Assembly (NCBI GenBank): GCA_017477245.1
Contig: JAFUWY010000004.1
Coordinates: 1 to 64,000, forward strand
DNA length: 64,000 nucleotides
Source: Bacteroidales bacterium
GTDB taxonomy: Bacteria > Bacteroidota > Bacteroidia > Bacteroidales > UBA932
Direction of reading: 5' to 3'
A program made the translations under genes and the position numbers. Shown in pieces: positions 8,021-59,338 of this stretch; position 1 is the stretch's first letter; every line of letters begins with the position of its first letter. The notes beneath the pieces were generated by a model. The model ran no database searches and was not told the origin of the DNA. It worked only from the letters and a program-made list of their open reading frames with translations.

Positions 8021-11000
8021 ATGAAAAGATTCCTTATTGCATTAATTACGTTGGTTACGGCGGCCATGCCGCTCTTTGCAGCCCCGACGGCGGACGAAGC
8101 GCGCCTGTTGCGCTTCCCCGCCGTAGGCGGCGGCAAAATCGTTTTCTGCTACGCCGGCAACCTCTACAGCGTCGACATCAACGGCGGACGCGCCGTCAAG
8201 CTGACCTCCGACGTCGGCTACGAGTGCTTCCCCAAGATCTCCCCGGACGGCCAGACCGTGGCCTTCACGGCCCAGTACGACGGCAACACCGAGGTCTACA
8301 CCATCCCCATCACCGGCGGTGAGCCCAAGCGCCTGACCTACAGCGCCCTCGTGGGCCGCGACCAGGTCGGCGAGCGCATGGGTCCCAACAACATCGTGAT
8401 GGGCTGGACCCCCGACGGCAAGCAGATTGTCTACCGCAACAAGCAGTGGTGCTTCAGCGGCCTGCGCGCCCAGCTGTGCAAGGTCAGCGTGGACGGCGGT
8501 GTACCGGAGTTCATCCCCACGACCGAGGGCGGCTTCTGCTCCTATTCGCCGGACGGCAAGCAGCTGGCGATGAACCGGATGTTCCGTGAGTTCCGCACCT
8601 GGAAGTACTACCGGGGCGGCCAGGCGGACGACATCTGGATCAACACCGTCGGCACCACCAAACTCGAGAAGATCACGGACAACGACGCCCAGGACATCTT
8701 CCCGATGTGGATCGGCAACGAGATCTACTACCTGTCGGACCGCGACCGGACGATGAACCTGTTCGTGTACGACACCCGCAGCAAGCAGAGCCGCAAGGTG
8801 ACGGATTTCACCGAATATGACTGCAAGTTCCCCGCCCACTCCGCCGACGGTTTCGTCGTCTTCGAGAACGGCGGCTACATCTATAAGTACGATGTCAAGA
8901 AGGGTGCCGCCGAGAAGGTCACCATCCAGCTCGCCGACGACGACGTCTGGAGCCGCACCGAATACCGCAGCACGGGGCTCAACCCCAGCGGGTTCAGCCT
9001 CTCTCCCGACGGCAAGCGCCTGTTGGCCGTGGTGCGCGGCGACATCTTCTCCCTGCCTGCCGAGAAGGGTCCGGTGGTGAACATCTCCCGTTCGCCGCAG
9101 TCCCACGAGCGCGAGGCCGTATGGAGCCCGGACGGTTCCCGCATCGCCTGGCTCTCCGACGCCTCCGGCGAATACCAGGTCTATACCGCCCCCGCCGACA
9201 ACATGGCGGAAGCCACCTGCCTGACCGATTTCAAGGAGGGCTATCCCTCCGGCCTGCAGTGGAGCCCGGACGGCAAGAAGCTCTATTTCAGCACCCTGCA
9301 CTGGGATGTCTGCGAACTGGACGTGGATTCCAAGGCGCTCAGCCGCATCCTCGTGGGCGAGCGCTCCGCCATCCGCTCCTTCACCCTGTCGCCGGACGGC
9401 GCCTGGGCGGCCTATACGCAGACGCTCCCCAACTTCATGAGCGGCATCTACCTCTTCGACCTCAAAGCCCGCAAGAGCTACCAGGTCACCGACCGCTGGT
9501 ATGAGGCCAGTTCCCCGGTCTTCTCCCGCGACGGCAAGTACCTCTTCTTCACCTCTTCCCGCGAGTTCCGCTCGCAGTACTCCGCCGTGGAGTGGAACGC
9601 TGCCTACAACGTCTCCGACTACGTCTTCGTGCTGCCCCTCGCCAAGGACACGCCCAACCCGATGGTCCTGGGCAATGACGAGTACGAGATTCGCCGGTCG
9701 GAGCCGGCGAATGACAAGAAGGGTCCGTCATCCGCCGGCTCGACCGGCGGATCTCCCGCCACCAAGGTCGATCTTGACGGTCTCGCGCAGCGCATCACGG
9801 CCCTGCCGCTCGAAGCCGGCCGTTACCGCCTCATCCTCGCCGACGGCGACAAGCTCTACTACAGCTCCTTCGGCGGCATGATGGGTGGCGGCATGATGGG
9901 CGGTGCCCGCGGCGGCGCTGCTGCCGGCGGCATCAAGGCCCTTGACCTGAAGACCCTGCAGACCTCCGATGTACCCACCTCACCGCTCGCCCTCACCGCC
10001 GATGCCAAGAAGGCCCTCGTGCGTGCGGACGGCGCCTACAAGGTCGTGAACTTCGGCGCCCCGGCCGGTCGTGGCGGTTCCGTGCCCGTGGGCGAGATCG
10101 ACATGATGATCGACCACGAAGCCGAATGGGCCCAGATCTACGACGAGAGCTGGCGCATCACCCGCGACAATTTCTACGTGGAGAACATGCACGGCGTCGA
10201 CTGGGACCACATGCGCGAGAAATACGGCCAGATGCTGCCCTACGTCAAGCACCGCGACGACCTGACCTACCTGATCGGCGAGCTTATCGGCGAACTGAAC
10301 ATCGGCCACGCCTATATCACCTCCGGCGAGAGCCCCGCCATCCCGCGTGTCGCCACGGGCCTGCTCGGCGCCCAGTACAGCAAGGACCGCCGCACCGGCG
10401 CATTCAAGATCGAGAAGATCTTCCGGGGAGCCGACTGGGACGCTTCCCTGCGCTGCCCGCTCCGCACCCCCGGCGTGGACGCCAAGGTCGGTGAGTACAT
10501 CGTAGAAGTCAACGGCACGCCCGCGAAAGACCTGCTCGATCCGGGTCAGGCCCTCATCGGCAAGGCCGGCAAGACCGTCTCCCTGAAGATCTCCGCCAAC
10601 GCCAACGGCACCGGCGCCCGCACCGTCTATGTCAAGCCCGTCGCGGACGAAGCCAACCTCGCCTACTACGAATGGGTCCAGAACAACATCGAGAAGGTGG
10701 ACAAGCTCTCCGGCGGCGAGATTGGCTACATCCACATCCCCGACATGAGCACCGAAGGCCTCGACATGTTCACCAAGCTCTACTACACCCAGCTGGACAA
10801 GAAGGCCCTCATCATCGATGACCGCATGAACGGCGGCGGCAACGTCTCCCCGATGATCCTCGAGCGCCTGCAGCGCGAGGTCTACCGGATGAACATGTAC
10901 CGCAACGGCGGCAACCGCACCGTGCCCAACGAAGCCTTCTATGGCCCGAAGGTCTGCCTCATCGACAAGTACTCCTCCTCCGACGGCGACCTCTTCCCGT

Positions 11001-11317
11001 ACGGCTTCCGCCAGCTCGGTCTGGGCAAGCTGATCGGCACCCGCTCCTGGGGCGGCATCGTGGGCATCTCCGGCTCCCGCCAGTTCGTGGACGGGCAGGA
11101 CATGCGCACGCCGTTCTTCACCTCCTACTCCACCGACGGTGAGTGGATCATCGAAGGCCACGGCGTCGACCCCGACATCGTGGTGGACATCAACCCCTTC
11201 GAGGACTGGCTCGGCAAGGACGCCCAGCTCGAGAAGGCCGTCGATTACCTCAAGGGCGAGCTCAAGCATTACAAACCGCTGCCGGGCACCCCTGCGGCAC
11301 CCGACAAAAGCAAATAA
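8021..11317 (+). CDS. Tricorn-like protease (beta-propellers, PDZ, S41 C-terminal peptidase)
   Basis: A 1098-aa exported protease. A signal peptide (residues 1 to about 20, ending LFAAP) is followed by WD40/TolB-like propeller repeats with recurring SPDG motifs to about residue 640, then a Tricorn C1 domain, a PDZ domain (about 790-860) and the S41-type core. Candidate catalytic residues are His763 in NIGHAY, Ser987-Asp988 in SSSDGD and a downstream Glu in the EWIIEGHG region, matching the arrangement in archaeal Tricorn. Bacteroidetes homologues are usually periplasmic. Positions 9688-9753 are a pair of palindromic repeats read in frame (see findings), lying between the second propeller and the C1 domain next to a Gly/Met-rich loop. 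Confidence 0.92.
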   Translation: MKRFLIALITLVTAAMPLFAAPTADEARLLRFPAVGGGKIVFCYAGNLYSVDINGGRAVKLTSDVGYECFPKISPDGQTVAFTAQYDGNTEVYTIPITGGEPKRLTYSALVGRDQVGERMGPNNIVMGWTPDGKQIVYRNKQWCFSGLRAQLCKVSVDGGVPEFIPTTEGGFCSYSPDGKQLAMNRMFREFRTWKYYRGGQADDIWINTVGTTKLEKITDNDAQDIFPMWIGNEIYYLSDRDRTMNLFVYDTRSKQSRKVTDFTEYDCKFPAHSADGFVVFENGGYIYKYDVKKGAAEKVTIQLADDDVWSRTEYRSTGLNPSGFSLSPDGKRLLAVVRGDIFSLPAEKGPVVNISRSPQSHEREAVWSPDGSRIAWLSDASGEYQVYTAPADNMAEATCLTDFKEGYPSGLQWSPDGKKLYFSTLHWDVCELDVDSKALSRILVGERSAIRSFTLSPDGAWAAYTQTLPNFMSGIYLFDLKARKSYQVTDRWYEASSPVFSRDGKYLFFTSSREFRSQYSAVEWNAAYNVSDYVFVLPLAKDTPNPMVLGNDEYEIRRSEPANDKKGPSSAGSTGGSPATKVDLDGLAQRITALPLEAGRYRLILADGDKLYYSSFGGMMGGGMMGGARGGAAAGGIKALDLKTLQTSDVPTSPLALTADAKKALVRADGAYKVVNFGAPAGRGGSVPVGEIDMMIDHEAEWAQIYDESWRITRDNFYVENMHGVDWDHMREKYGQMLPYVKHRDDLTYLIGELIGELNIGHAYITSGESPAIPRVATGLLGAQYSKDRRTGAFKIEKIFRGADWDASLRCPLRTPGVDAKVGEYIVEVNGTPAKDLLDPGQALIGKAGKTVSLKISANANGTGARTVYVKPVADEANLAYYEWVQNNIEKVDKLSGGEIGYIHIPDMSTEGLDMFTKLYYTQLDKKALIIDDRMNGGGNVSPMILERLQREVYRMNMYRNGGNRTVPNEAFYGPKVCLIDKYSSSDGDLFPYGFRQLGLGKLIGTRSWGGIVGISGSRQFVDGQDMRTPFFTSYSTDGEWIIEGHGVDPDIVVDINPFEDWLGKDAQLEKAVDYLKGELKHYKPLPGTPAAPDKSK
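9688..9753. repeat. Paired inverted REP-like palindromes inside the Tricorn coding sequence
   Basis: Two palindromes face each other: 9688-9715 (GATTCGCCGG ... CCGGCGAATGAC) and 9727-9753 (GTCATCCGCCGG ... CCGGCGGATC), separated by 11 bp. Both belong to the same family as the intergenic repeats at 12,620-12,770, 17,185-17,283 and 59,310-59,338. The reading frame stays open and encodes IRRSEPAND and a Ser/Gly/Thr-rich stretch, a linker-like peptide. The paired arrangement resembles a BIME. Confidence 0.85.
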
Positions 11318-12619: not shown

Positions 12620-12770
12620 ATTCCCCGTCATTTGCCGGATCGGTCCCGTCATCCATCGACCTGACCTCCCGTCATTCGCCGGCTTGACCCCCCGTCATTC
12701 GCCGGCCTAACGTCCTGTCATTCGCCGGCTTGACCCCCCGTCATTCGCCGGCTTGACCGGCGAATCTGAC
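12620..12770. repeat. Array of REP-like units (family with GCCGG stems)
   Basis: Four to five units of about 20-25 bp, each containing GTCATTCGCCGGC, lie in one orientation (at about 12,670, 12,693, 12,716 and 12,739, with a degenerate copy near 12,627). The last unit completes the palindrome CGCCGG...CCGGCG before the adjacent long hairpin. The array lies between the convergent ends of the dehydrogenase and transposase genes. Confidence 0.9.
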
Positions 12771-12780
12771 AATCAATCAC

Positions 12781-12824
12781 TTACGAATTAACCTTCGGAG
12801 AAAACTCCGAAGGTTAATTTATAA
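12781..12824. repeat. Long hairpin element, copy 1 (composite REP partner)
   Basis: Left arm 12,781-12,800 (TTACGAATTAACCTTCGGAG), loop AAAA, right arm 12,805-12,824, with two mismatches near the base. The flanking segment 12,765-12,792 is the exact reverse complement of the corresponding part of copy 3 near 17,160-17,186. It lies between convergent gene ends, so it may also stop transcription in both directions. Confidence 0.88.
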
Positions 12825-12839
12825 GTATCTGATTATCAA

Positions 12840-13763
12840 CTATACCAAAAAAGCCGCGTGCAGAAACTTGGCATTCTCAACCGGGGTTGCTCCCGCTTGT
12901 TCGCAAAAGAGATTGGCCAGCCGATGCTGTTCATACAGGGACAGGCGTGACAACCGGACCCGGGACAGGTCATATCCTTCAGCATATGCCAGCCGCATCA
13001 TCTTGTAATAGTGCCGGTAATCTTCCCTGACCTGCTCCTCGGCCAGATCGTACTCGCTTCCGGCAACCGTCGCAAGCATGGTGCAGATCGCCCGATAATC
13101 TCCCCACTTCCTCATCGCTTCCCCGTAATCGATTGCATTATACAGTACGACAATATAGTCCAGGACCTGTCTCCTTTCTTTGTCGGACAACCGCGAATAT
13201 ACACCGCCGAAGAACAGATAATCAACGGGATGACCCGCCCTGCGACGCATCCGCACAGCTGCAAATGCCTGCTGCAACGGCTCCGACATCTCCTCCGGAT
13301 CAACCGGATCGGAAAACGGATTCCGGTTATCCATATAGGCCAGAAAGTTCCAACGATAGCGTTCCGCACGGTCGACAGCGTGCTTGACAACCGGATTGTT
13401 GCAGATGTAAATGTAGTTATCCTGGATTTTCTGCCCTTTATTCTTCGGTGCATTGCTGAACTGTCCCAGGAACAACCGCCCGGAGCGTTTGTATTGCCGA
13501 TTGTACATACGGGTGAACTGTGCCATCAGGTCCCGCATGAACGAAGACAGTATCTCCGGCGAACGCGCCCAGATCTGGATGTGATAGTGATTGAGCATAA
13601 TGCACAGGGACAAGATACGCACACCGTACTTCCTGGCCAGGACACAGAGCAGCGTGAACCAAACCAGGCAATCCGCCGAAGAGTAAAAGCAGATCCCCCG
13701 GTCAACCGTAATCTGGTAAACATGGTCATACCCATGTATGCTGTTTTTGCGGACTGAAGTCAT
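12840..13763 (-). CDS. REP-associated tyrosine transposase (Y1/IS200-like, RAYT)
   Basis: A 307-aa HUH single-strand transposase. It shows the metal-binding HxH in MLNHYHIQIW (His59, His61), a candidate catalytic tyrosine at Tyr87 in RMYNRQYKRSG, and a family-typical NNPVV segment. Family members act on hairpin-forming REP sequences by single-strand cleavage. The start was moved from an upstream TTG to the ATG at 13,763. Hairpin elements lie on both sides (12,781-12,824 and 13,933-13,976), the context expected of a RAYT with its own substrates. The C-terminal about 130 residues extend beyond the core domain and are not recognised. No IS-type terminal repeats were seen, so it is likely a domesticated single-copy gene. 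Confidence 0.87.
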   Translation of the reverse strand: MTSVRKNSIHGYDHVYQITVDRGICFYSSADCLVWFTLLCVLARKYGVRILSLCIMLNHYHIQIWARSPEILSSFMRDLMAQFTRMYNRQYKRSGRLFLGQFSNAPKNKGQKIQDNYIYICNNPVVKHAVDRAERYRWNFLAYMDNRNPFSDPVDPEEMSEPLQQAFAAVRMRRRAGHPVDYLFFGGVYSRLSDKERRQVLDYIVVLYNAIDYGEAMRKWGDYRAICTMLATVAGSEYDLAEEQVREDYRHYYKMMRLAYAEGYDLSRVRLSRLSLYEQHRLANLFCEQAGATPVENAKFLHAAFLV

Positions 13764-13932
13764 ATGCAAATGTCAGTATAATTAGCCGTTTGACAGGTAG
13801 ATTATTGTCCGGAAATGGAAATCGTTGACAATCAGCAGATTTACGATTGCACCCCAAAGAATCAGACATACATTCCACTTCGTTTTTGTACGATTCTTTC
13901 TGATTATACGACTGATCTTGAATGACAGGCAC

Positions 13933-13976
13933 TTACGAAATAACCTTCGGAGAAATCTCCGAAGGTTATTTCGTAA
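13933..13976. repeat. Long hairpin element, copy 2
   Basis: A perfect palindrome with 21-bp arms (13,933-13,953 and 13,956-13,976) and a 2-nt AA loop. It shares the core AACCTTCGGAGA with copies 1 and 3, while the outer arm bases differ compensatorily (GAAATA instead of GAATTA). The 9-mer TGATAATCA follows at 13,982. It lies 24 bp beyond the end of the beta-propeller gene and could serve as its terminator. Confidence 0.9.
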
Positions 13977-13999
13977 AACACTGATAATCAGCAGTAGCC

Positions 14000-17099: not shown

Positions 17100-17127
17100 A
17101 ACCGGCGCACAATTGATAATCAGCGAT

Positions 17128-17171
17128 TTACGAATTAACCTTCGGAGAAATCTCCGAAGGTTAATTCGTAA
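17128..17171. repeat. Long hairpin element, copy 3
   Basis: A perfect palindrome with 21-bp arms (17,128-17,148 and 17,151-17,171) and an AA loop. It lies between the convergent ends of the DUF2271 and aldolase genes. TGATAATCA precedes it at 17,114 and TGATTGATTGTCAG follows, leading directly into the REP-like array. Confidence 0.9.
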
Positions 17172-17184
17172 GTGATTGATTGTC

Positions 17185-17283
17185 AGATTCGCCGGTCAGG
17201 CCGGCGAATGACGGGAGGTCAGGCCGGTGAATGACAGCGTCAGGCCGGCGAATGACGGGACGCGGGGCCGGTGAATGACGGCG
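17185..17283. repeat. Array of REP-like units, inverted relative to the 12.6-kb array
   Basis: Four units of about 22-25 bp sharing GGCCGG(C/T)GAATGAC, starting with a full palindrome GATTCGCCGG...CCGGCGAATGACGG at 17,186-17,214. Order and orientation mirror the array at 12,620-12,770, with the long hairpin on the inner side in both cases. Confidence 0.9.
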
Positions 17284-24585: not shown

Positions 24586-24611
24586 CGGGGACGGCCCGAA
24601 GACCGTCCCCG
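24586..24611 (-). terminator. Intrinsic terminator after the first SusC/SusD unit
   Basis: A 9-bp GC stem (CGGGGACGG at 24,586-24,594 with CCGTCCCCG at 24,603-24,611) and an 8-nt loop. In the minus direction it is followed by ATTTGTTTATG, a moderately T-rich tail. It is 22 bp beyond the SusD stop. Confidence 0.65.
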
Positions 24612-24633
24612 AAAAACATTCATCAGATAACTG

Positions 24634-26373
24634 CTACCAGCCCGGATTCTGCGTAAGATTCTGGTTCTTCATGATCTCGGTCTGCGGGATCGGGAAGAGG
24701 TACATCTTCTCATTCCACTGGCGGGAGACGTTGACACGGTTGTACTTGAAACCGTCTCCGTCGGGCGTAATCTGCATCTCGACGATATTGGTGAAGTACT
24801 TGTCAGCCTCTTTCCAACGGCGGACATCCCAGAAGCGGTGGTTCTCGAAGGCAAGTTCGACCATACGCTCGTTCTTGTACTTCGTCCAGAACGCATCGTT
24901 GCTCATGCCCGTCTCGAAGGCCGGCATGCCCACGCGTTCGCGCGTCTTGCTGGCCAGCGTGGCGGCGGACTCGGCGAACTCGCCGCTCGTCGCATCCGCG
25001 CTGCCCAGGTACTGGAACACGGCCTCGGCATAGTCCAGGTAGATGCCGCCCATGCGGTACAGCACATACGTGTGGTAGTTCTGCTTCAGCTTGGAGTTCG
25101 CAGACAGGTCGATCTCACCGTGGAGGAGTTTCTTCAGGTAGTAGCCCGTGGTGGTCGCACCGGCCAGCGGCAAGCCGTTGGTCCCGCCGACATAGGTCTG
25201 CAGGAGAGGAGCGCCGCTGTAGGTCGGCCACTGGCTGCCGTTGGTCGCCACGGTCAGCGCCAGGCGCGGATCGCGGTTCGCATACGGATCGTTCGGGTCA
25301 TAACCGCTGCCGGCTTCGTTGATGCCCTTGCCGTTGAGCATGTCGTAGGCATCCACCAGGTTCTGGGTCGGGCAGTTCGCGCCGACGATGTTGTCCACAT
25401 CCGTCGTCGCAGCAGCCTTCTCGATACCGGCCGGGTAGTTGTAGGACTCCGCGTTGTTGTTGACACCGCTCACACGGCGGGCGAACACGATCTCCTTCGT
25501 GATGGCAGCCGTGGTGTAGTTCAGCGTGGACCAGGTGTCCTCATACTTGGCCGTCAGGCCTTTGCCGCGGGCGTCGCAGGCAGCCACCAGCTCTTTATAA
25601 TAGGTAGCGGCATTGTGCCAGCGCTCCTTGTCATTGCCCGGGTTGAACAGCGGGCTTGCCCAGTACAGGGCCGCCTGGGCCTTGAGGGCCAGCACGGCCA
25701 GCTGGTCGGCGCGGCCGTCTTCGGCGGTGCCGATAGCCATGTCACCGAGGTCCGTATAGTCCTTGATGATCTTGTTCTGGATGTCGGTGCACTCCGAGAT
25801 GATGAAGGAGAAGACCTCGTCCGAGGTGCTGCGGGAAATCGAGTTGATTTCCTCGACAGACATGCCTTCTTTCACCAGGGGGACCCCACCGTACTGGCGG
25901 GCCAGGTTGAAGTAGAAGTACGCACGCATGAACCGGACCTCATACTGGTAGTTCTGATACCGGAACATCTGCTGCGGGTAGTCCTTGTTGAGCTCCAGCT
26001 TGGCGAAATCCAGCCCCTGCATCTCCGACAGGAAGATGTTGCAGGTCGAGATACCTGCATACATGTTGGTCCACGTGGAGGACTTCGGGTTCGCCGGACT
26101 CCAGCCGCCGTTGTAGAAGGCCTCGATTCCGTTGCCCCGGACGCTGTACTCGCTCTCGTCGGAAGCGGAAGAGAGCATCGCGCCGCTGCTGTAATTACCG
26201 AAGTCGTATTCCATTGTGTTATAGATGTCGGTCAGGAAACCGCCGACATTCCCGAACGTCTCGGTAATATAGTCCCTGTCGTAGACGATGTACTCCTTGT
26301 AGTTCATCTGCTTCTGGCAGGCAGCCAGCAGAAGGACGGAAAGGGCGATAAGAAATATGTGTTTCTGTTTCAT
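24634..26373 (-). CDS. SusD-like glycan-binding lipoprotein (unit 1, second pair)
   Basis: A 579-aa SusD/RagB-family outer-membrane lipoprotein, lipobox at LLAAC (Cys19). It contains the family's TPR-like helical core and the ENHRFWDVRRWKEAD segment, and ends in LTQNPGW. It should cap the SusC barrel 19 bp upstream and bind oligosaccharides. It clearly matches the protein at 34,804 over its full length (by eye about three-quarters identical), so the two arose by duplication. Confidence 0.94.
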   Translation of the reverse strand: MKQKHIFLIALSVLLLAACQKQMNYKEYIVYDRDYITETFGNVGGFLTDIYNTMEYDFGNYSSGAMLSSASDESEYSVRGNGIEAFYNGGWSPANPKSSTWTNMYAGISTCNIFLSEMQGLDFAKLELNKDYPQQMFRYQNYQYEVRFMRAYFYFNLARQYGGVPLVKEGMSVEEINSISRSTSDEVFSFIISECTDIQNKIIKDYTDLGDMAIGTAEDGRADQLAVLALKAQAALYWASPLFNPGNDKERWHNAATYYKELVAACDARGKGLTAKYEDTWSTLNYTTAAITKEIVFARRVSGVNNNAESYNYPAGIEKAAATTDVDNIVGANCPTQNLVDAYDMLNGKGINEAGSGYDPNDPYANRDPRLALTVATNGSQWPTYSGAPLLQTYVGGTNGLPLAGATTTGYYLKKLLHGEIDLSANSKLKQNYHTYVLYRMGGIYLDYAEAVFQYLGSADATSGEFAESAATLASKTRERVGMPAFETGMSNDAFWTKYKNERMVELAFENHRFWDVRRWKEADKYFTNIVEMQITPDGDGFKYNRVNVSRQWNEKMYLFPIPQTEIMKNQNLTQNPGW

Positions 26374-26392
26374 ATCCGTACAGGTTTATCAG

Positions 26393-29227
26393 TTAAAAGG
26401 TCAGGCTGATGCCGGCCACGATGCTGCGGGACAGCTGTGCCGTGCCATAGGCCTCGGGATCGTCAACCGCCATGCTGTCGAAGCTGAACAGGTCGTTGCC
26501 GCGGCAGTACACCTTGGCGGCCTTGATGAAGGTCGTGCGCTCGAGCAGGCTCTCAGGCAGCTTGTAGTAAAGCTCGATGTTGCGGAGCTTCAGGAAGGAG
26601 CGGTCCTGCAGGAACACGGTGTTGTTGCGGTAGTTGTTGAGGTTGCTCTGGCTGCTCAGCGCCGGGAACAATGCATCCGGCGTGGACGGGGTCCAGCGGT
26701 TATCGTAGTAGTACTTGGAAATCGTGGTGTCGCCCACCAGCGGATAGTACATACTCTTGGTATTGAGGATGCCGCTGTAGGTCGAAGCGCCCTGGAAGAG
26801 GGCGTACACACCCAGGCCTCTCCACTCGGCTCCCAGATGGAAGTTGTAGTAGATCTCAGGGGAAGTACCGCCGTTGCCGATGGCCACGACGTCGTTCTCG
26901 TCGATCACGCCGTCATGGTTGACATCCTCGTACTTGATGTCACCGGGACGGACGACGGAGAAATTCTGGGTCGGGCTGGCTGCGATGTCTTCGGCATCCG
27001 CGAAGAAACCGATGGCGTTCAGGCCGTAGAGCTGGTCCACGCGGTTGCCCGTCTGGACCAGGTTCTCATACAGGCGCGGCTCTTCGAGCATGTCCACGAT
27101 CTTGCTGCGGTTCAGGTTGAAATTCCCGCCGTAATCGAGGAAGAGATCGCCCAGCTTGGTGCTGTAGTTCAAACCGAGTTCGAAACCATGGCTGTCCACG
27201 ACGCCGCCGTTCTCATACGGTGCGGTCATACCGACCACGGAAGAGTACTTACCTTCGGCGCTCACCCAGATGTTGCTGCGGCGCTGCCAGTAAGCATCGA
27301 ACGTTGCGGTCAGGCCGTCAAACAGACGGGCGTCCACGCCGAAGTTGACCTTGAGCGCCTTCTCATGCGTAGGATTGATCGCCGCGATACGGCCGACATA
27401 CGTACGGCTGAATTCCGTACCGTAACCGTTGTTGAACGGATAGCTGCCGCTACCGGTCGCATACTGCTGGACGTAGTAGTCCCAGGTGTTGCTGCCCGGC
27501 AGGTAATCGGCATTCAGGATACCGGCGGATGCGCGGAGCTTCAGGTAGTTCAGCACATCGGAGCCCTGGACGGAATCCATGTTCGAAATCACCCAACCCA
27601 GCGAGAGGGTCGGCGAGAACGCCCACTTCGTATTCGGAGCCAGGCGGCTCGATCCGCTCTCCATCAGGACCACATCCGCGAGGAACGTGTCCGCATAGTT
27701 ATAGTGGCCCCACAGGCTGAGGTTGTGGCGGTAGATCGTACGGTTGGTGCCGTTGATGTCCTCGTAGTCAAAGTCGTATTTGAACTGCGTCTTGAAAGCA
27801 CTCTCGCCTACCGCGAAGTCATACTTCAGGCCCGCATCCACATGCGCCCGGCGGCTGTAGGAGTTCGCACCGGAACCCGTGCCCATCGCGGAATCCGTAC
27901 CGGCAGAGGTGGAGGTGTAGGTCGGCATGGCCGCGCCTTGCGCCCAGGTCGGGGTGTTCACATGATAGACATAGGTCTTGCTGTGGTTCTCGTACATGTT
28001 CACCACGTTGTCGTAGGACACGCGCAGGAATGCGCTCAGGCCCTCCGTCCAGGAGGACAGGTCCTGCTTGATCGTGATGTCGGAGAACAGCAGGCGGTTG
28101 TGGTTCTTGTAATAGGCTGCGCCACGCGTCTGGCCCACAGGGTTCACGGTGCCCGGCCAGGCAGCGTTGGCACTACCGGCCCAGATGGCTCCGGCGCCGC
28201 CGCGCGTCCACGTGAAGCCACCGTCCTGGATCGGGAAAGCGGCCGAAGGGACGCTATAGACCATGTCCCAGGGATCGATGTTGGAGCCCGGGCGGCTGTC
28301 TTCCATCAACATACCCAGCACGTTGATCCGCAGGTCCGTCGTCGGGGTCAGGTCGATGTCCATGTTCATGCGCATGTTGCCGCGCACATACTTGTCCTGC
28401 GTGCTGTAGCCTTCGTTCACCTCGGAGCCATTGATGAAGCCCTTGTCGGCGATCAGGTCCAGCATCGCAAAGTAACGCAGACGGCCCTGGCCGCCGCTGA
28501 ACTCCATGTTAAAGTTGTTGGTCGAAGCCGTGTTCTTGAAGACCTCGTCCACCCAGTTCACACTCGGGTACAGCGCAGGATAGATGCCGCTGCGGAGCGC
28601 GTTGATCTCGGAGGAGTTGTACATCGGGGTCATACCGTCGTTGGCCCGGGCCTCGTTGATGGCCAGGCCATAGGTGTAACCGTCCACGAACTGCGGCTTG
28701 TTCACCAGCGAGTTGAACATATGGTCGTAGGTGAACTTCACCGACCGCGTGTTGTACTCACCCCGCTTGGTCGTCAGCAGGATCGCGCCGTTGATGCCCT
28801 TGTAGCCGTACAGGGCCGTCGCAGCAGCATCCTTGAGGATCGACACGCTCTCCACTTCCTCTGCGGAGACACTGGTAATCGGGCGCTCGATGCCATCCAC
28901 CAGAATCAGCGGAGTCGAGTTGCCGTTCAGCGTCTGAAGTCCGCGCACGTAGAACGTCGGATTCATGTCGGAGACATTGCCCGCGCCCTGCAGGGAGATC
29001 AGACCCAGACCCTGACCCAGAATACTGTTGCCGATATTCTTGGTCGTCCGGTGCCCGAACTCATCCGCCGTGATGACGGAGATCGCCGCCGTGGACTCCT
29101 CCATCGTCAGCTCGGTCGCCGGAAGACCCGTCTCGACCGACCGCTTCTCGAACTTGTCGTCCTGTGCGGCCGCTGTCAGGCAGATCGCCGCCGACAGCGC
29201 AAGCACGAATGTATATTTCATTTTCAT
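26393..29227 (-). CDS. Short SusC-like TonB-dependent transporter (unit 1, second pair)
   Basis: A 944-aa SusC/RagA-family transporter. A signal peptide (1 to about 21) is followed almost directly by the plug domain (FYVRGLQTLNG, VEEVESVSILKDAAATALYG) and the beta-barrel ending in ISLTF. Unlike the neighbouring SusC genes it has no CarboxypepD_reg-like N-terminal domain and no obvious TonB box of the EVVxxYG type. Its partner SusD begins 19 bp downstream. The closest relative in the window is the gene at 36,564. Confidence 0.93.
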   Translation of the reverse strand: MKMKYTFVLALSAAICLTAAAQDDKFEKRSVETGLPATELTMEESTAAISVITADEFGHRTTKNIGNSILGQGLGLISLQGAGNVSDMNPTFYVRGLQTLNGNSTPLILVDGIERPITSVSAEEVESVSILKDAAATALYGYKGINGAILLTTKRGEYNTRSVKFTYDHMFNSLVNKPQFVDGYTYGLAINEARANDGMTPMYNSSEINALRSGIYPALYPSVNWVDEVFKNTASTNNFNMEFSGGQGRLRYFAMLDLIADKGFINGSEVNEGYSTQDKYVRGNMRMNMDIDLTPTTDLRINVLGMLMEDSRPGSNIDPWDMVYSVPSAAFPIQDGGFTWTRGGAGAIWAGSANAAWPGTVNPVGQTRGAAYYKNHNRLLFSDITIKQDLSSWTEGLSAFLRVSYDNVVNMYENHSKTYVYHVNTPTWAQGAAMPTYTSTSAGTDSAMGTGSGANSYSRRAHVDAGLKYDFAVGESAFKTQFKYDFDYEDINGTNRTIYRHNLSLWGHYNYADTFLADVVLMESGSSRLAPNTKWAFSPTLSLGWVISNMDSVQGSDVLNYLKLRASAGILNADYLPGSNTWDYYVQQYATGSGSYPFNNGYGTEFSRTYVGRIAAINPTHEKALKVNFGVDARLFDGLTATFDAYWQRRSNIWVSAEGKYSSVVGMTAPYENGGVVDSHGFELGLNYSTKLGDLFLDYGGNFNLNRSKIVDMLEEPRLYENLVQTGNRVDQLYGLNAIGFFADAEDIAASPTQNFSVVRPGDIKYEDVNHDGVIDENDVVAIGNGGTSPEIYYNFHLGAEWRGLGVYALFQGASTYSGILNTKSMYYPLVGDTTISKYYYDNRWTPSTPDALFPALSSQSNLNNYRNNTVFLQDRSFLKLRNIELYYKLPESLLERTTFIKAAKVYCRGNDLFSFDSMAVDDPEAYGTAQLSRSIVAGISLTF

Positions 29228-29260
29228 ACTTTCTGATTTTTACAAGTTACAGGAAGTCTG

Positions 29261-31324
29261 CTACCAGCCCGGGTTCTGCTCGAGTCCGTATCCCTTGTTG
29301 ATCTCAGTCAGCGGGAACGGGGTCAGGAACCACTTGCAGTCAAAACCTTCTTTCCACCACTTGCGGGAGAGAATGTCGATGGGGACACGCTCATAGTCGA
29401 AGTGGGAAGGCTCATACCAGTTGAACGTACCCTCTTCAGCTGCGGTGCGGTCGCCGTTGTACCACTGCGTCGTGACGCGGTTGCCGTTCTCGTCCAGACG
29501 GTAGATCAGCAGGCGGTGCAGCGTGGCCTCGAAGCGGTCGGAACGCTTGTAGCGGACCAGGTCCGTATAGCGGGAGTCATTGAGCGCCAGCTCGCAGGCA
29601 CGCTCACGCAGGATCTCCTCCAGGAGGTTGTCCTTGTTGGAGAGCAGGTTCTTGTCCGGGTTGCACTCGACGATGCCGCCGAGGCCGACGCGGGCGCGTA
29701 CGGCATCGATATACGAGACAGCTTCGGAAGCACTGCCACCGCTCTGGAGGATTGCCTCGGCGTAGGTCAGATACATCTCGCTCATGCAGAGCCAGACCCA
29801 CTGCGGATACTTGCCGTTGAAGGCGTCACCCGCGACATACTTGAGGTTGCGGAAACCGGTCCCCCAGTGGTCATCCTGGTTGATCGGGTGCTGGAGGGCG
29901 GTGGTGCCACCGACCCAGGCCTCGTAGTTGGCGCCGCTGCGCTGGCCGTTGCCCCAGTTGATGGTCTGGAGGGCGCCGTTGACGCCGGCCGTCTCATACA
30001 GGCGCGGGTCGCGGACGTACTTGCGGTTCTGCAGCATCTGGGATCCGGCGACCTTGTCACCCTTGATGAACATGTTGTCCAGACCGTTGATCTCCACGTC
30101 CTGGCCGTTCACCTTGACCGTGAACGGGGTCTTCGCGGCAGCCTCGGTCTTGTCCCAGTCGAACGGCGTACCGTCGGCCCAAGGGAACATCTCCACATAC
30201 TCCTCCGTCGGGCAGTAGCTCATACGGGGGTTGTTACGCAGGTTCATCCAGCCGTAGTCGTTGCCGCTGGCGTTGCGGTGGACACGGACACCCATCAGGA
30301 CCTCGGGGCTGCTCTGGAGCAGGTAGGAGGAGCGGAAGGCATAAGCGTAGTCTTCCTGGGTCGTGCCGGCAGGCTCTACCAGATGGTAAGGGTTTCCTTC
30401 CGCGGCATTGCGGTCGAAGAAAGCCTTGCAGGCATCACGAACGGCCGTCCAGCGGCTGGCGTCATAGTTGCCGTACCACACCGGGCCGGAATCTTCCATC
30501 GTGTACTTGCCGTCGTAGTAAGGCTTGGTATCGTTGAACAGCGGGGAAGCGGCGAAGAGGAGGATCTTGGCCTTCAGCGCCATGGCGGCGCCGATCGTCC
30601 AGCGGCCCGTCTCGCTCGCGGCGTCGGTCGTGCCGGCGTAGCTGAACACGAGGTTGTTGTTCTTGATCACGGTATCCAGCAGGCCGACCATGAACTTCAC
30701 GGTCTCGTCCACGCTGCCGCGCGGCAGGTTGTATTCGGCGTCAGCACCGGAGAATGTGCCCTCGATGATCGGCAGGCCGCCGTAGAAGCGGAAGGTCACG
30801 AAATAGGTGCTTGCCAGGATACAACGGACTTCGTCCTTCATCCGGGCCTTCTCGGCATCGGACAGGCCGGGTACACCGTCAATGTTCTCCAAGAGGATGT
30901 AGCAATGGCGGACGTTCTCCCACACGTACTCGTTGAGGTACGGGTAGATCGAGCCGTTGTTGTTGCTGTTGTAGGACGAGGTCATCGCCAGATCATAGTA
31001 GGAGGTCACGACGATCAAGCTCGCAAAGAAAGCATGATGCGTATCGGACAGGGCGTCCGGCGTTCCCTTCCAGTAGTTCAGGCACTGGGGCGGCGAGTTC
31101 GTGGAATTCGTCGGGAGCGCATAGTACATCTTGTTATAGATGGCAGACAGGAACTGCCGCGTGTATTCGGCGTTCGTAAACACCGTGTCCGCCGTGACCG
31201 TGCCACCCGGAGCCTTCTCAAGGAAAGCATTGCCCACCTTGAACGGATCCGTACAGGAATTGATGCTGAAGCAGAATCCTACTGCAGCAGCCATCGCAAT
31301 AAGGGCTTTATATAGGTGTTTCAT
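29261..31324 (-). CDS. SusD-like lipoprotein (unit 1, first pair)
   Basis: A 687-aa SusD-family lipoprotein, longer than the other pair's SusD. Lipobox at SINSC (Cys24). It contains YLTYAEAILQSGG and a C-terminus ending in LEQNPGW. It follows its SusC by 5 bp and precedes the short SusC by 33 bp, so all four genes of the unit are probably one transcript. The first about 60 residues are nearly identical to the copy at 39,408, while the middle regions differ more, suggesting divergence in ligand binding or local gene conversion. Confidence 0.94.
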   Translation of the reverse strand: MKHLYKALIAMAAAVGFCFSINSCTDPFKVGNAFLEKAPGGTVTADTVFTNAEYTRQFLSAIYNKMYYALPTNSTNSPPQCLNYWKGTPDALSDTHHAFFASLIVVTSYYDLAMTSSYNSNNNGSIYPYLNEYVWENVRHCYILLENIDGVPGLSDAEKARMKDEVRCILASTYFVTFRFYGGLPIIEGTFSGADAEYNLPRGSVDETVKFMVGLLDTVIKNNNLVFSYAGTTDAASETGRWTIGAAMALKAKILLFAASPLFNDTKPYYDGKYTMEDSGPVWYGNYDASRWTAVRDACKAFFDRNAAEGNPYHLVEPAGTTQEDYAYAFRSSYLLQSSPEVLMGVRVHRNASGNDYGWMNLRNNPRMSYCPTEEYVEMFPWADGTPFDWDKTEAAAKTPFTVKVNGQDVEINGLDNMFIKGDKVAGSQMLQNRKYVRDPRLYETAGVNGALQTINWGNGQRSGANYEAWVGGTTALQHPINQDDHWGTGFRNLKYVAGDAFNGKYPQWVWLCMSEMYLTYAEAILQSGGSASEAVSYIDAVRARVGLGGIVECNPDKNLLSNKDNLLEEILRERACELALNDSRYTDLVRYKRSDRFEATLHRLLIYRLDENGNRVTTQWYNGDRTAAEEGTFNWYEPSHFDYERVPIDILSRKWWKEGFDCKWFLTPFPLTEINKGYGLEQNPGW

Positions 31325-31329
31325 CTCTC

Positions 31330-34300
31330 TTAGAAGTTAAGTTTCAGACTGAGCGTCAGCGTCCGCGTCAGCGGATAGGTCGGCGAGTTCGATGCACGCG
31401 TCTCCGGGTCGCCCCAGATGTACGGTGTGAAGGTCAGCAGGTTGTAGCCGCTGAGCGCCACTTGTGCGCGGTCCAGGCCGATCGTGGAGAAGAATGGGAA
31501 CTTGAAGTTGTAACCCACCATCACGGTCTTCAGACGCACGTAGTTGGCGTTCTTCTCATAGAGGGTGCAGTCCTGGTAGTTGTTGACGTTACCGTTGGAC
31601 CAGGTAGCACGCGGATAATAGGCATCCTGGGAAGGATTGTTCGGGTCCCAGGTGTGGTCCACCTGATACTTGAGCAGACCGCCGGTCGTGTAGTCCGTAC
31701 GGGACTCGAACGGGACGCGGAAGGAGTTGGAAATCATACGGGACACGCCGAAGGCGCCGGTCCACTGCATGTTGAAATCCCAGTTCTTCCAGCTGAAGCC
31801 TCCGTTGAGACCCACCACGTACATCGGATCGTCGGTAAAGCCTAGGTCGCGGGTCTTGTCGTTCGCATCGATGTAGCCGTTGCCGTCAAGGTCCACAAAC
31901 ACGGCGTCACCGTCCTTGAGGTTGACCAGCTGGGTCGGGAACGGCTTGCCGAAGGTCTCCTGGTAGAGGCGCGGCGTGTCGGCGTCGTAGTAGCGGAAGA
32001 ACTGGTACTGGCTGCGGGCGCCGATACGGTGGCCCTTCTCGTACTGGTACTCATTATTATAAGGAGCTTCCTTGCGCTCGATGATCTTGTTCTGGTTGTA
32101 GGACAGGTTCATGTTCAGGTTGTAGCGGAAGTCGGAGCCGATCCGGTCGTTCCACTTCAACTGCACTTCCCAGCCCCAACTGTCCACCTTGCCCAGGTTG
32201 GCGTAAGGCACCGTGAAGCCGATCACCTTCGGGGCCGTCTGGTCCTGCAGGAGGATGTCCCAGCGGTGCTCCATGTAGTAGTCGAAGGAGGCGCTCAGGC
32301 GGTTGTCCAGGAAGTTCATGTCCACGCCGTAGTCCTGCTTGAGAGCCTTTTCCCAGGACACGTTCGGGTTGTTGCGGGAGCTCTCCATGGCACCGTTGTG
32401 GGCGGTGGAGTTCTCGATACCGAAGTTGTAGGCCCAACCGGAACGGGTTGCATAGGAAGAACTGTTGACCGTGTACGGGTCAGCCAGATACATGAAGCGG
32501 GAACCACCGATCTTGTCGTTACCGACCAGACCGACGGAGGCACGGAATTTCAGGAAGTTGATCACGCCCTTCAGCGGACGGAAGAACGGCTCGTCGCTCA
32601 CCACCCAGCCGATGGAACCGGCCGGGAACAGGCCGAAGCGGCGGTCGGGGTGGAAGTTCTCGGAACCGTTGTAGCCCACGTTGAACTCCGCCAGGTAGCG
32701 CTTCTTGTAGTCATAGGTCACACGGCCGACCAGGCCGATGTAGCCGCGCGGGATATCCGAATAGGAGCTCGGATAGTATTCCTTGCTCTGGTTGTAGAGC
32801 ACCAGGGCGCCCACGCTGTGGTCGCCGAAAGTGCGGCCGTAGTTGAGCGATGCCTCCGCGTACCAGTTACGGCTGCGGCCGATGCCCTTCGAGTAACTCA
32901 GCGGGCTGTCCTGGCCGCTCACGCGGTACTTCAACGAGCCATCATCCTGAATGACAGGAGAGTATGTCGCAATGCTGTGCGAGCCGGTATAGGAGATGGT
33001 GAAGTTCGAGTTGTAGGAGCCCTTGATCTTGAAGTTGAGGCCCGGGGTGATGAACTTCAGGTCCTGGTTCAGGGTGAGGTCCATCTGCAGGCGGTTATTG
33101 CCGCTGGAGATGAAACCCGGCTGATAGGTCAGGTATTCCAACGGGTTGTCGTTCATGACAAACGGCAGCTGCACGCCGTCCGTGTAGTCGTTGGTCGTCA
33201 CGACATATTTGCCATCAACGAGACCCGGAGAAGCGAAAGGATTCGCGTAGTACACCTTCATGAGCATACCCGAAGAACCCTGGCCGGTACGCGGCGCATC
33301 CTGGCGGGATACGTTGCCCGAGATGTCGAAGGAAATCTTCGTCGTCTTCGTCACGTCGATGTCCAGGTTCGAGCGGTAGTTGAAACGCTTGTACTGGTAG
33401 CCAAAGTGGTAGTCGCGGTCGAATTCGTTGAACAGACCGTCCTGCGTCGCAAGACCCACGGACACGAAGTACTTCACTCGCTCCGCGCCACCCGAGATGC
33501 TCACGCTATGGTTGGACTGCATCGTCTGCTTCTTCATGATGTAGTCCGTCCACTGCATGCTCGGGAAACGGATCGGATCTTCGCCAGTACGGAATTTCTC
33601 GATCACGGCATCGGAGAACACGGGATTGGCACCGTCGTTGGCACGCATCTGGTTGTAGAACAACGCATATTCCAGCGAACTTGCCTGCTCGACCAGCTTG
33701 GTCGGCATCTGCAGCGACACGCTCGTGTTCACGTTGATCCGGGGCTTGCCCTGAGAACCGCGCTTCGTCGTGATCAGCAGGACGCCGTTCGCTCCGCGCA
33801 CACCGAACACGGCCGTCGCGGAAGCATCCTTCAACACCGTGATGCTCTCGATGTCTTCCGGGTTCAGGTCCGACATCGGACGCTCCACGCCGTCCACCTG
33901 GATCAGCGGGGAGGAGTCCGTCCACGTACCTTTACCACGGACGAACACCGTCGCCGCATCGGCGCCCGGTTCACCGGAGTACTGGACCGTGGTCACACCG
34001 GACAGCTGGCCCGCAAGCACGTTGTTCACGGACGTGACCGGCGTGCGGACCAGGTCTTCTGACTTCACGCTCGACAGAGCGCCCGTCACCGTGACCCTGG
34101 TCTGTCTACCATAGGCGACGATCTCGACTCCTTCCAGTGATTCGGCATCTTCCTCCAGCACAAGGTTGTACGTCCGCCGCTGGTCCACGGTGAACTCCAT
34201 CTCCTTGTAGCCGATGCAGGATACCGTAACCACCGCGCCGGCAGGTACGTTCAACGTGAACTTGCCGTCGATGTCGGTGACCGTACCATTGCGCATGTTG

Positions 34301-34758: not shown

Positions 34759-34803
34759 TTCCAATAAGGTGCTCGCGATGCTCAAGAGAGCATCAGGCTG
34801 CTG

Positions 34804-36543
34804 CTACCAGCCCGGATTCTGCTCGAGATTCGGATTCTTCATCCGCTCAGTCTGCGGGATCGGGAACAGGTACATCTTGTCATCCCACTGGCGGCTCACG
34901 GTCTTGCGGGTGTACTTGAAGCCGTCACCGTCCGGGGTGATCTCCATCTCCACGATATTCTTGAAGTACTTGTCGGCCTCCTTCCAGCGACGGACATCCC
35001 AGAAGCGATGGTTTTCGAACGCAAGCTCGACCATACGCTCATTCTTGTACTTCTCCCAGAACTTGTCGTTGCTCATGCCGCTCTCGAACGCAGGCATGCC
35101 GGCACGCACGCGCGTCCTGCTGGCGAGCGCCGCAGCGGACTCCGGGAACTCGGAGCTCGTCGCATCCGCGCTGCCCAGGTAGCGGAACACCGCCTCGGCG
35201 TAGTCCAGGTAGATGCCGCCCATGCGGAACAGCACATACGTATGGTAGCTGTTCTTGTATCGGCTGGTGGAACGCAGGTCGATCGTGCCGTTGAGGAGTT
35301 TCTTCAGATAGTACCCGGTCGTCGTGGCGCCGAGGAGCGGCTGGCCATTGGCTCCGCCGACATAGGTCTGGAGCATCGGGGCGCCGCTGTAGCTCGGCCA
35401 CTGGCTTCCGTTGGTCGCCACGGTCAGCGCCAGGCGCGGATCGCGGTTCGCATACGGGTTGGCGGGATCATAGCCGCTGTCCGCATCGTCGATGGACTTG
35501 CCGTTGAGCATGTCGTAGGCATCCACCAGGTTCTGCGTCGGGCAGTTCGCGCCGACAATGTTGTCCACGTCGGTGATGGAGGTCGCCTTCTCGATGCCGG
35601 CCGGATAGTTGTAGGACTCGGCCTGGTTGTTGGCGCTGGTCCGGCGGGCGAAGATGATCTCCTGCACGATGGCCGGGGTCGTATAGTTCAGGTAAGACCA
35701 GATGTCATCATACTTCGGCGTGAGCTTCTTCCCGCGGGCGTCGCAGGCGGCCACCAGCTCTTTATAATAGGTGGCGGCATTGTGCCAGCGCTCCTTGTCG
35801 TTGTTCGGGTTGAACAGCGGGCTTGCCCAGTACAGGGCCGCCTTGGCCTTGAGGGCCAGCACGGTCAGCTGGTCGGCACGGCCGGTCTCGGCGGAGCTCA
35901 GGGCATTGTCGCCCAGGTCCGTGTGGTCCTTGATGATCTTGTCCTGGATGTCGGCGCACTCCGAAATGATGAAGGAGAACACCTCGTCCGAAGAAGAACG
36001 GCTCAGGGAATTGACTTCGTCCAGCGACATCTCCGGCGTCACCATCGGCACGCCGCCGTACTGCCGAACCAGATTGAAGTAGAAGAACGCGCGCATGAAG
36101 CGGGCATCATACTGGTAGTTCTTGTACCGGTACATCTGCTGGGGATAATCCTTGTTGAGCTTCAGCTCATCGAAGGTCAGCCCCTGCATCTCCGACAGGA
36201 CCAGGTTGCAGGTAGCGATACCCTTGTACATGTTGGTCCAGGTAGCGGACTTGGGATTTGCCGGACTCCAGCCACCGTTGTAGAAATCTTCGATATCGTT
36301 GCCGCGCACGCTGTACTCGCTCTCGTCGGAGGCGGAAGCCAGCATCGCACCGCTGCTGTAGTTACCGAAGTCGTACTCCATCACGTTGTAGGCATTGGTC
36401 ATGAAACCACCTACATTCTCGAAAGTCTGCGTAACGTAGTCCTTATCGTAGATGGCGTATTCCTTGTAATTCATCTGCTTGGTGCAGCCTAACAGGAACA
36501 ACGCAGCGACGGTGAGGAGCAGAAATATGCTTTTGTGTTTCAT
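34804..36543 (-). CDS. SusD-like glycan-binding lipoprotein (unit 2, second pair)
   Basis: A 579-aa SusD/RagB-family lipoprotein (lipobox LFLLGC, Cys20), ending in LEQNPGW. It aligns without large gaps to the protein at 24,634. Differences concentrate in the signal peptide and in segments such as LSSAETGRADQ, while blocks like NYSSGAM and NPANPYANRDPRLAL are conserved. The ATG at 36,543 was chosen over the one at 36,549 because it matches the start of the duplicate. It is paired with the SusC 20 bp upstream. Confidence 0.94.
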   Translation of the reverse strand: MKHKSIFLLLTVAALFLLGCTKQMNYKEYAIYDKDYVTQTFENVGGFMTNAYNVMEYDFGNYSSGAMLASASDESEYSVRGNDIEDFYNGGWSPANPKSATWTNMYKGIATCNLVLSEMQGLTFDELKLNKDYPQQMYRYKNYQYDARFMRAFFYFNLVRQYGGVPMVTPEMSLDEVNSLSRSSSDEVFSFIISECADIQDKIIKDHTDLGDNALSSAETGRADQLTVLALKAKAALYWASPLFNPNNDKERWHNAATYYKELVAACDARGKKLTPKYDDIWSYLNYTTPAIVQEIIFARRTSANNQAESYNYPAGIEKATSITDVDNIVGANCPTQNLVDAYDMLNGKSIDDADSGYDPANPYANRDPRLALTVATNGSQWPSYSGAPMLQTYVGGANGQPLLGATTTGYYLKKLLNGTIDLRSTSRYKNSYHTYVLFRMGGIYLDYAEAVFRYLGSADATSSEFPESAAALASRTRVRAGMPAFESGMSNDKFWEKYKNERMVELAFENHRFWDVRRWKEADKYFKNIVEMEITPDGDGFKYTRKTVSRQWDDKMYLFPIPQTERMKNPNLEQNPGW

Positions 36544-36563
36544 ATCCATACTGTGTTATTCAG

Positions 36564-39374: not shown

Positions 39375-39407
39375 ACTTTCTGGTTTTTACAAGTTACAGG
39401 AAGTCTG

Positions 39408-41468: not shown

Positions 41469-41473
41469 CTCTC

Positions 41474-52935: not shown

Positions 52936-52963
52936 AGATTCCGGGTCAAGCCCGGAATGACGG
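52936..52963. repeat. REP-like palindrome (CCGGG-stem type) between rpsB and tsf
   Basis: AGATTCCGGG-TCAAG-CCCGGAATGACGG: the termini (GATTC/GAATGAC) match the GCCGG-stem repeats but the stem bases differ in a paired fashion. It sits just upstream of the tsf start. Confidence 0.9.
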
Positions 52964-55745: not shown

Positions 55746-55807
55746 AGATTCCGGGGCATGCCCGGAATGACGTGAACGAACCAGATTCCGGGACGGCCCC
55801 GGAATCT
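55746..55807. repeat. Pair of REP-like palindromes upstream of pyrH
   Basis: AGATTCCGGGG...CCCGGAATGACG (55,746-55,772) and a second palindrome AGATTCCGGG...CCCCGGAATCT (55,783-55,807), 10 bp apart, in the region between divergent sdhC and pyrH. The second ends 20 bp before the pyrH ATG. Confidence 0.88.
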
Positions 55808-56526: not shown

Positions 56527-56553
56527 GATTCCGGGTCAAGCCCGGAATGACGG
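56526..56553. repeat. REP-like palindrome between pyrH and frr
   Basis: AGATTCCGGG-TCAAG-CCCGGAATGACGG, the same sequence as the copy between rpsB and tsf. Its first base is the last base of the pyrH stop codon. Confidence 0.9.
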
Positions 56554-59309: not shown

Positions 59310-59338
59310 GATTCGCCGGTCAGGCCGGCGAATGACGG
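59310..59338. repeat. REP-like palindrome in the aminopeptidase leader
   Basis: GATTCGCCGG-TCAGG-CCGGCGAATGACGG, a GCCGG-stem copy. It begins almost exactly at the predicted transcription start, so the mRNA would open with a stable hairpin 28 nt before the ATG. Confidence 0.88.

Follow-up and report, generated by a model that had tools for sequence, protein, structure and literature searches.

A facing pair of REP-type palindromes lies in frame within the linker of a Tricorn-like protease gene of an uncultured Bacteroidales bacterium, and the same linker, as well as loops in a nitrilase, MurE and an M3 peptidase, holds palindromes of different families, decayed copies, other inserts or no recognisable repeat in related species. 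Most probably (we put it at about 0.85) the pair, which belongs to CGTC-like REPs, entered the linker and was kept in frame, many genes of the same genome were affected, and the four loops are docking sites that have been re-used. The stretch of DNA analysed (64,000 nt, hereafter the window) corresponds to contig C27 of a 2.38-Mb genome (G000), which is 96% complete. Judged by the Tricorn protein, the named relatives nearest to it belong to Bacteroidales/Bacteroidia, several of them coming from goat, yak or deer stomach samples.

The protease gene of the S41 type (8021–11317, plus strand) is an intact reading frame of 1098 aa, open through both palindromes. Pfam domains PD40, Tricorn_C1, PDZ_Tricorn and Peptidase_S41 are recognised in its product, and residues 29–1091 align to PDB 1k32. 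Palindrome 1 (9688–9715, plus strand) is the 28-nt form of REP family A with arms GATTCGCCGG/CCGGCGAATGAC and a 6-nt loop, while palindrome 2 (9727–9753, minus strand) is a stem variant of the same family with the changes GATCCGCCGG/CCGGCGGATGAC. They face each other across 11 nt within a stretch of 66 bp and are read as EIRRSEPAND (residues 556–565, nt 9686–9715) and SSAGSTGGS (residues 570–578). Thus, the earlier note was right that two facing palindromes of the intergenic repeat family are translated here as a linker. It had also named an insertion of about 22 residues unique to this lineage as something that would support it. The insertion is evident, since residues 556–578 meet gaps of 6, 11 and 4 (21 residues) between the blocks aligned with Thermoplasma tricorn 1k32, but its uniqueness had to be rejected: G203 has the pair, G208 has palindrome 1, and other species carry different palindromes at this site. 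Homologues with the same peptide in genomes free of the repeat were not seen: G204 and G214, which have no exact copy of family A or B, lack it, although they are not devoid of all palindromes (11 and 8 matches to a looser pattern, and two family-C copies in G214). The 28 nt of palindrome 1 are also found in frame at G000:C16:9823 in a gene of the MFS type and at C42:91636 in the M3 peptidase gene. The core of palindrome 2 recurs at G000:C3:13451-13475 with the same SSAGSTGGS peptide in a YfhO-like gene, which has two palindromes.

Family A is built as GATTCGCCGG-loop-CCGGCGAATGAC, the loop being 5 nt in the 27-nt form (A27) and 6 nt in the 28-nt form (A28). With up to 3 mismatches its pattern gave 71 matches (35 forward and 36 reverse, most hairpins being counted twice, once per strand), and the reversed-pattern control gave 0. 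Exact copies number 36 in the window's genome, 6 of them in the 28-nt form, again with 0 in the reversed control; one copy (C32) has flanks equal to those of the C33 copy and was merged, which leaves 35 with distinct flanks. A chance resemblance of the 28-nt sequence is very unlikely, as it matches a dispersed family and the reversed controls gave 0. Family B is represented by 16 exact copies, which were the ones classified, or by 19 with a looser pattern (reversed controls 0), and family C by no copy in the window's genome. Rfam gave no match in the window or in the related locus L031 at gathering thresholds.

According to PMC3733652 (Di Nocera et al. 2013), CGTC REPs have CGTC (or TGTC/CCTC) at one end, a stem of 8–9 bp starting from A/T and mostly a 5-nt loop; they form facing dimers, belong to several families in some genomes, and Bacteroidetes are among the phyla reported. 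The palindromes described here share the end, the stem, the facing dimers and the intragenic sites. GAATGAC is followed by G in all 18 non-coding and in 14 of the 17 coding family-A copies, and the stems start with A/T, with 9 bp in family A (ATTCGCCGG/CCGGCGAAT) and 8 bp in family B (ATTCCGGG/CCCGGAAT). The 27-nt form fits the rule of a 4–5 nt loop; the 28-nt form, to which the Tricorn copy belongs, has 6 nt, and exceptions are published in PMC3733652 as well. Whether coding or not, family-A copies mostly have GGA or GGG in front and GG or GA behind. On the CGTC strand the triplets before GATTC thus mostly read TCC/CCC after the stem instead of a CCA tail; as most but not all units described in PMC3733652 fit CCA, we file the families as CGTC-like. 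The GTAG end of REPs and REPINs was not found, the ends being mostly GGAGATTC and GAATGACGG. Many non-coding family-A copies run on into tandem arrays of the 3' half. Two intergenic arrays of this kind lie at 12625–12766 (minus strand, 23-nt period, ending in one full REP at 12740–12766) and at 17186–17279 (plus strand).

Coding copies were called by an open frame spanning the repeat together with genome-typical codon usage on both sides, and this automatic test was applied to 50 copies with distinct flanks (28 A27, 6 A28 and 16 B). In the window's genome 9/28 A27, 4/6 A28 and 1/16 B copies pass; an additional, 29th A27 copy at C44 fails. When the codon score was combined with inspection and a Pfam scan of 20 candidate proteins, 17 of the 35 family-A copies and 3–4 of the 16 family-B copies were found to be coding, so that the genome search proposed along with the original observation did yield further coding copies. 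These counts include copies below the automatic threshold that were called by inspection and Pfam (L019, L020, L028 and L030 of family A; L167, L168 and L171 of family B), the weakest being L028 and L167, where the repeat precedes the first recognised domain. Pfam found no match for L002 and L182 among the 20 candidates, and the YfhO match of L003 was below cut-off. The repeat is located within one Pfam envelope in indole-3-glycerol-phosphate synthase (IGPS, L009), MurE (L012), the nitrilase (L023), two MFS transporters (L011, L194), a copper ATPase (L030), a GH2 protein (L154), the M3 peptidase (L156) and the NUDIX domain of a MutY-like protein (L168). It falls between recognised parts in a response regulator/sigma-54 activator (L006), a GH2/Ig protein (L008) and RmlD (L020), between two parts matched in the PDB alignment in Sua5 (L013), and after the matched part in GH92 (L019). 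In PDB alignments of the M3 peptidase, RmlD, nitrilase, IGPS and Sua5 the match is interrupted, or residues are added, where the repeat lies; in MurE the repeat occupies a loop of about normal length.

In other genomes the automatic test gave lower values: 1/15 A28 copies in G210 and 0/1 in G063, in a sample from G208 2/6 A27, 2/16 A28 (the Tricorn gene among these two) and 1/2 B, and among the remaining loci 4/11 A27, 2/13 A28 and 5/27 B. The idea that the 28-nt form is a version adapted to coding was rejected, since 4/6 coding copies in the window's genome are set against 1/15 in G210 and 2/16 in the G208 sample.

Nine of the 17 coding A copies are read as SFAGLTGES-like peptides (in reverse), three as DSPVKPAND-like and four, all of the 28-nt form, as EIRRSEPAND-like ones, with a single EIRRSSRRMT; the open arginine-rich reverse frame VIRRLDRRI is used by 0 of the 17. 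Tandem halves within coding regions preserve the frame as well: of 16 coding steps 15 are spaced by a multiple of 3, versus 10 of 24 non-coding ones (Fisher p = 0.0009). The sole exception (L011) was read as a pattern offset, and if it is counted as 18 the ratio becomes 16/16 (p = 0.0001). Both the choice of frame and the spacing pattern are as predicted by selection for an open and tolerable peptide, and one can assume that selection at the protein level filters the inserts.

Occupation of the same place in different species was compared for four loops, in 18 genomes for Tricorn (that of the window and those of L031–L047), 17 for the nitrilase, 17 for M3 and 18 for MurE. As the four genes were selected for having a palindrome in the window's genome and not blindly, generality across genes cannot be claimed yet. 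The Tricorn linker holds intact family A in the window's genome, G203 and G208, and intact family B at the same codon in G207, G210, G211 and G212. Decayed copies, one A and one B, are present in G202 and G209, and a longer, different insert, VERSE[VA]GTSR, in G200, G205, G206 and G215; in the remaining five of the 18 genomes (G201, G204, G213, G214 and G216) no repeat was recognised. In the nitrilase loop, G000 has two facing A palindromes; G203 and G201, genomes with 8 C copies each, have family C there, G208 has reverse B and G213 VERSEVGTSR, and there are decayed C-like forms in G200 and G211 and a decayed B-like pair in G206. The loop is short (15–18 nt) in G204, G209, G210, G212, G214 and G215 and has 24 nt in G216. 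In the M3 loop family A is found in G000 and G203 and reverse A in G208 and G216, while a further family (EIPGQAGDD, EIPDQVGDD) occupies it in G201, G207, G208 and G210 and in decayed form in G205; G206 has a decayed B-like pair, G202 and G213 have other inserts, and the loop is short in G200, G204, G209, G212, G214 and G215. The MurE loop is occupied by family A in G000 and G203 and by a different hairpin in G210; many other genomes have long, differing inserts of varied length there.

In MurE loops of different species (L296–L307) the inserts SPVLPDGEGSAAA..., PPVWKTPS.GTT and ERAFPQR.ED...LQPSGD recur. A second, longer insert is seen in frame in the Tricorn linker of several species (L031:6684 onward, L036:4501, L046:6684) and in the nitrilase loop of a further one (L316:679-707, minus strand). 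It follows the pattern GTTGAGCG.AG.GA.GTCGG.ACCAGCCG..., is common to L031 and L316 over ~100 bp, and varies in its inner stem (GACTTCGTC/GACGAAGTC versus GACTTTTG/CAAAAGTC). In the window, the DNA pattern of VERSEVGTSR had no match even when 3 mismatches were allowed.

A strict hairpin rule (arms of at least 8, no more than 1 mismatch, loop of 3–7 and TGAC directly after) was satisfied by 7/18 Tricorn, 4/17 nitrilase, 7/17 M3 and 3/18 MurE loops. Altogether this makes 21/70 loops, or 17/66 without the window's genome, versus 58 of 13145 control windows (0.44%) of the same length from the rest of the same genes, which overlap and are therefore not that many independent draws. The occupant of the Tricorn linker also follows the composition of the genome in part. 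Where it is intact A, family A is at least as numerous as B (A/B copies 36/19, 11/11 and 58/19), where it is intact B, family B prevails (10/36, 21/30, 1/17 and 25/72), and G204 and G214 (0/0) have neither in this loop. Such a pattern fits supply from the resident family, but these species are related to each other, G216 with 38/44 copies has no recognised Tricorn insert, and A-rich G208 breaks the supply rule, carrying B in the nitrilase and another family together with A in M3.

These observations are best accounted for as follows. A facing pair of CGTC-like REPs (66 bp) would have entered the linker of the protease gene and would have been retained because its length and frame give a short, polar peptide free of stops, in a linker that was permissive and variable already. 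Many genes of this genome would have been struck likewise, and the loops of Tricorn, nitrilase, MurE and M3 peptidase would serve as docking sites used repeatedly, with gain, loss, exchange and decay of palindromes and other inserts. Differences in occupancy may arise from insertions, or from conversion among elements whose ends resemble each other (GGAGAT...GATGAC). Because the loops are naturally variable, exact boundaries of the empty site cannot be drawn. A broader form of this proposal, to which we give slightly less than an even chance, is that certain loops in the genus are standing docking sites, where unrelated palindrome families replace one another in frame as species diverge. The turnover of REPs would then keep supplying new loop sequence to conserved proteins, even to the essential MurE.

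It may be supposed instead that each gene received one ancient palindrome and that the families now differ through gene conversion or element replacement from other copies in the genome, with occasional deletion. We regard this as quite possible, though somewhat on the doubtful side. It is in line with the 5' junction, which is alike across families (GAG|GAGAT[TC]C for M3, CTGGA|GATTC for the nitrilase), the ends of the families being similar, and with some near-empty nitrilase loops (G209, G216) that look like shortened palindromes. However, short loops are scattered over the tree, and the unrelated insert VERSEVGTSR also occupies the Tricorn and nitrilase sites. On a quick tree with loop states assigned by eye, the fewest changes of state are 10 for Tricorn (22 rows), 8 for the nitrilase (15 rows; G202 and G207 left out, their state not being assignable, and G205 having no loop sequence) and 10 for M3 (17 rows; G211 having no loop, the G206 segment absent from the tree, and the putative-repeat inserts of G202 and G213 counted as one 'other repeat' state). 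Whether the palindromes came once or many times, they must thus have been gained or lost repeatedly.

The earlier note also suggested that the repeats actively move. Occupancy does differ between species, and we infer movement itself from this difference; a transposase of the Y1/RAYT type may be the agent. A candidate lies in the window at 12840–13769 (minus strand, 309 aa). It scores 25.3 bits with PF01797 (cut-off 23) and has HYH, an HUH motif, in LNHYHIQIW, which assigns it to Y1 (HUH) transposase-like proteins. With NF047646 of NCBIfam (REP-associated tyrosine transposase) it reaches 38 bits at a cut-off of 80 and is for this reason called RAYT-like only. That this gene encodes the dedicated transposase of the CGTC-like REPs and forms a CGTC REPtron with them seems to us unlikely, albeit worth considering. 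A full family-A REP is located ~77 bp from the gene, on one side, both in the window and in the syntenic locus L032 (98% identical protein), a family-C REP 79 bp from a fragment of the gene in L031, and a family-A REP 157 bp from a distant Y1-like gene in G210. Yet the three close cases represent one syntenic locus (window, L032 and L031), and the syntenic RAYT-like copy of L037 (69%) has no REP beside it. Of 30 loci matching the protein (many of them weak, some gene pieces), 5 contain an exact CGTC-like REP and 4 have it within 200 bp. REP-rich G208 gave no match to the RAYT-like protein, while G201 has a 98% identical one and only 5 A copies. A firm link between REPs and this gene, with REPs within 200 bp at 4/30 loci, three of them one locus, was thus not supported, and the link remains weak. 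The locus deserves attention all the same, since according to PMC3733652 no RAYT gene is flanked by CGTC units; here one RAYT-like locus has a CGTC-like REP, on one side only.

The palindrome might also be kept for a role in RNA or DNA, as an mRNA hairpin slowing the ribosome between domains or as a binding site for gyrase or another protein, the peptide being a by-product. The pair does fold very stably (−54.3 kcal/mol for 9680–9760, z = −7.4, unmatched in 200 shuffles), and some of the sites are found between domains, as in the linker from response regulator to sigma-54 domain. But related species have no hairpin there or only decayed remnants, and one loop may be occupied by families with different stems, which makes this role improbable. 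An ordinary low-complexity linker that resembles the repeat by chance or biased composition is hardly credible, for although the linker varies in length and sequence in aligned orthologues, its 28 nt match a dispersed family (reversed controls 0), and genes unrelated to this one contain such DNA and peptide too.

Rickettsia palindromic elements (RPEs) are the classic case of in-frame palindromic repeats in unrelated genes. In the work of Ogata and Claverie they are said to fit the protein fold and to decay with time. The parallel with RPEs drawn in the first description of the Tricorn insert is apt, as in-frame palindromes in unrelated genes were found here too. The palindromes work like RPEs, and we set the two side by side by description and not by sequence, claiming no membership; unlike RPEs, they belong to another phylum, and it is a new aspect that from species to species one loop can exchange one family for another. 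Intragenic CGTC repeats of R. conorii are identified with RPE-4 and RPE-6 in PMC3733652, where CGTC REPs are also described within genes in several species and different REPs at approximately the same recB site in two Xanthomonas species. CGTC REPs, their presence in Bacteroidetes and their intragenic location in several species are thus already published. In contrast to that account, one genome has about half of its family-A copies called coding here, the same loops are re-used in four genes over 17–18 species, and tandem clusters are common, being rare for CGTC in the table of PMC3733652. What is new is how far this goes in a single Bacteroidales genome, and that in each of the four genes one loop is used repeatedly, by several families or inserts. 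With REPINs/BIMEs and their RAYTs (PMC3116915, PMC2817692) our case shares two inverted REPs and a Y1 transposase gene in the genome, but REPs there are mainly extragenic and tagged with GTAG (PMC3733652), a tag lacking here. Related work on intragenic small mobile sequences is listed under PMC2759123, PMC2229807 and PMC2996958. Intragenic REPs in Bacteroidales were not described in the titles and abstracts found, a scope outside which most subscription papers and the supplementary list of PMC3733652 fall.

So far, REPs inside genes have been described for a limited set of species. The present case comes from an uncultured lineage, whose named relatives are largely ruminant-derived and in which one and the same loop can be seen filled, decayed, swapped or nearly empty. 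This allows questions that earlier work left to be tested: by what route palindromes get into genes, whether insertion prevails over conversion or the reverse, and how fast the new peptide is remodelled. Such loops would be places where DNA repeats become new protein sequence, and for annotation they are a warning that a REP is not always extragenic.

Several other repeats were registered in the window. An imperfect palindrome of ~70 bp (12767–12838) adjoins the REP array and the 3' end of the RAYT-like gene, and a related one lies upstream of that gene (13926–13991), so that the two flank it; a third related copy, at 17113–17185, is solo and directly followed by the other REP array. The REP and the palindrome 12767–12838 pair as a repeat with 17113–17237. 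A REP thus adjoins two of the three palindromes in the same arrangement, which suggests a composite mobile unit. In L032 the neighbouring dehydrogenase (ADH) and the RAYT-like protein are 98–99% identical to those of the window and the Tricorn protein ~90%, a disparity that, judged by sequence identity, may suggest recent recombination in the Tricorn-ADH-RAYT region. Three copies of REP family B (52937–52961, 55747–55771 and 56527–56551) and a single family-A REP (59310–59336), all on the plus strand, are not coding by the codon test. A long tandem duplication joins 24600–33500 with 34800–43600 at ~10.1 kb spacing (72–91% identical in the blocks listed), and at 62349–62797 a unit of ~149 bp is present in three head-to-tail copies that are 96% identical.
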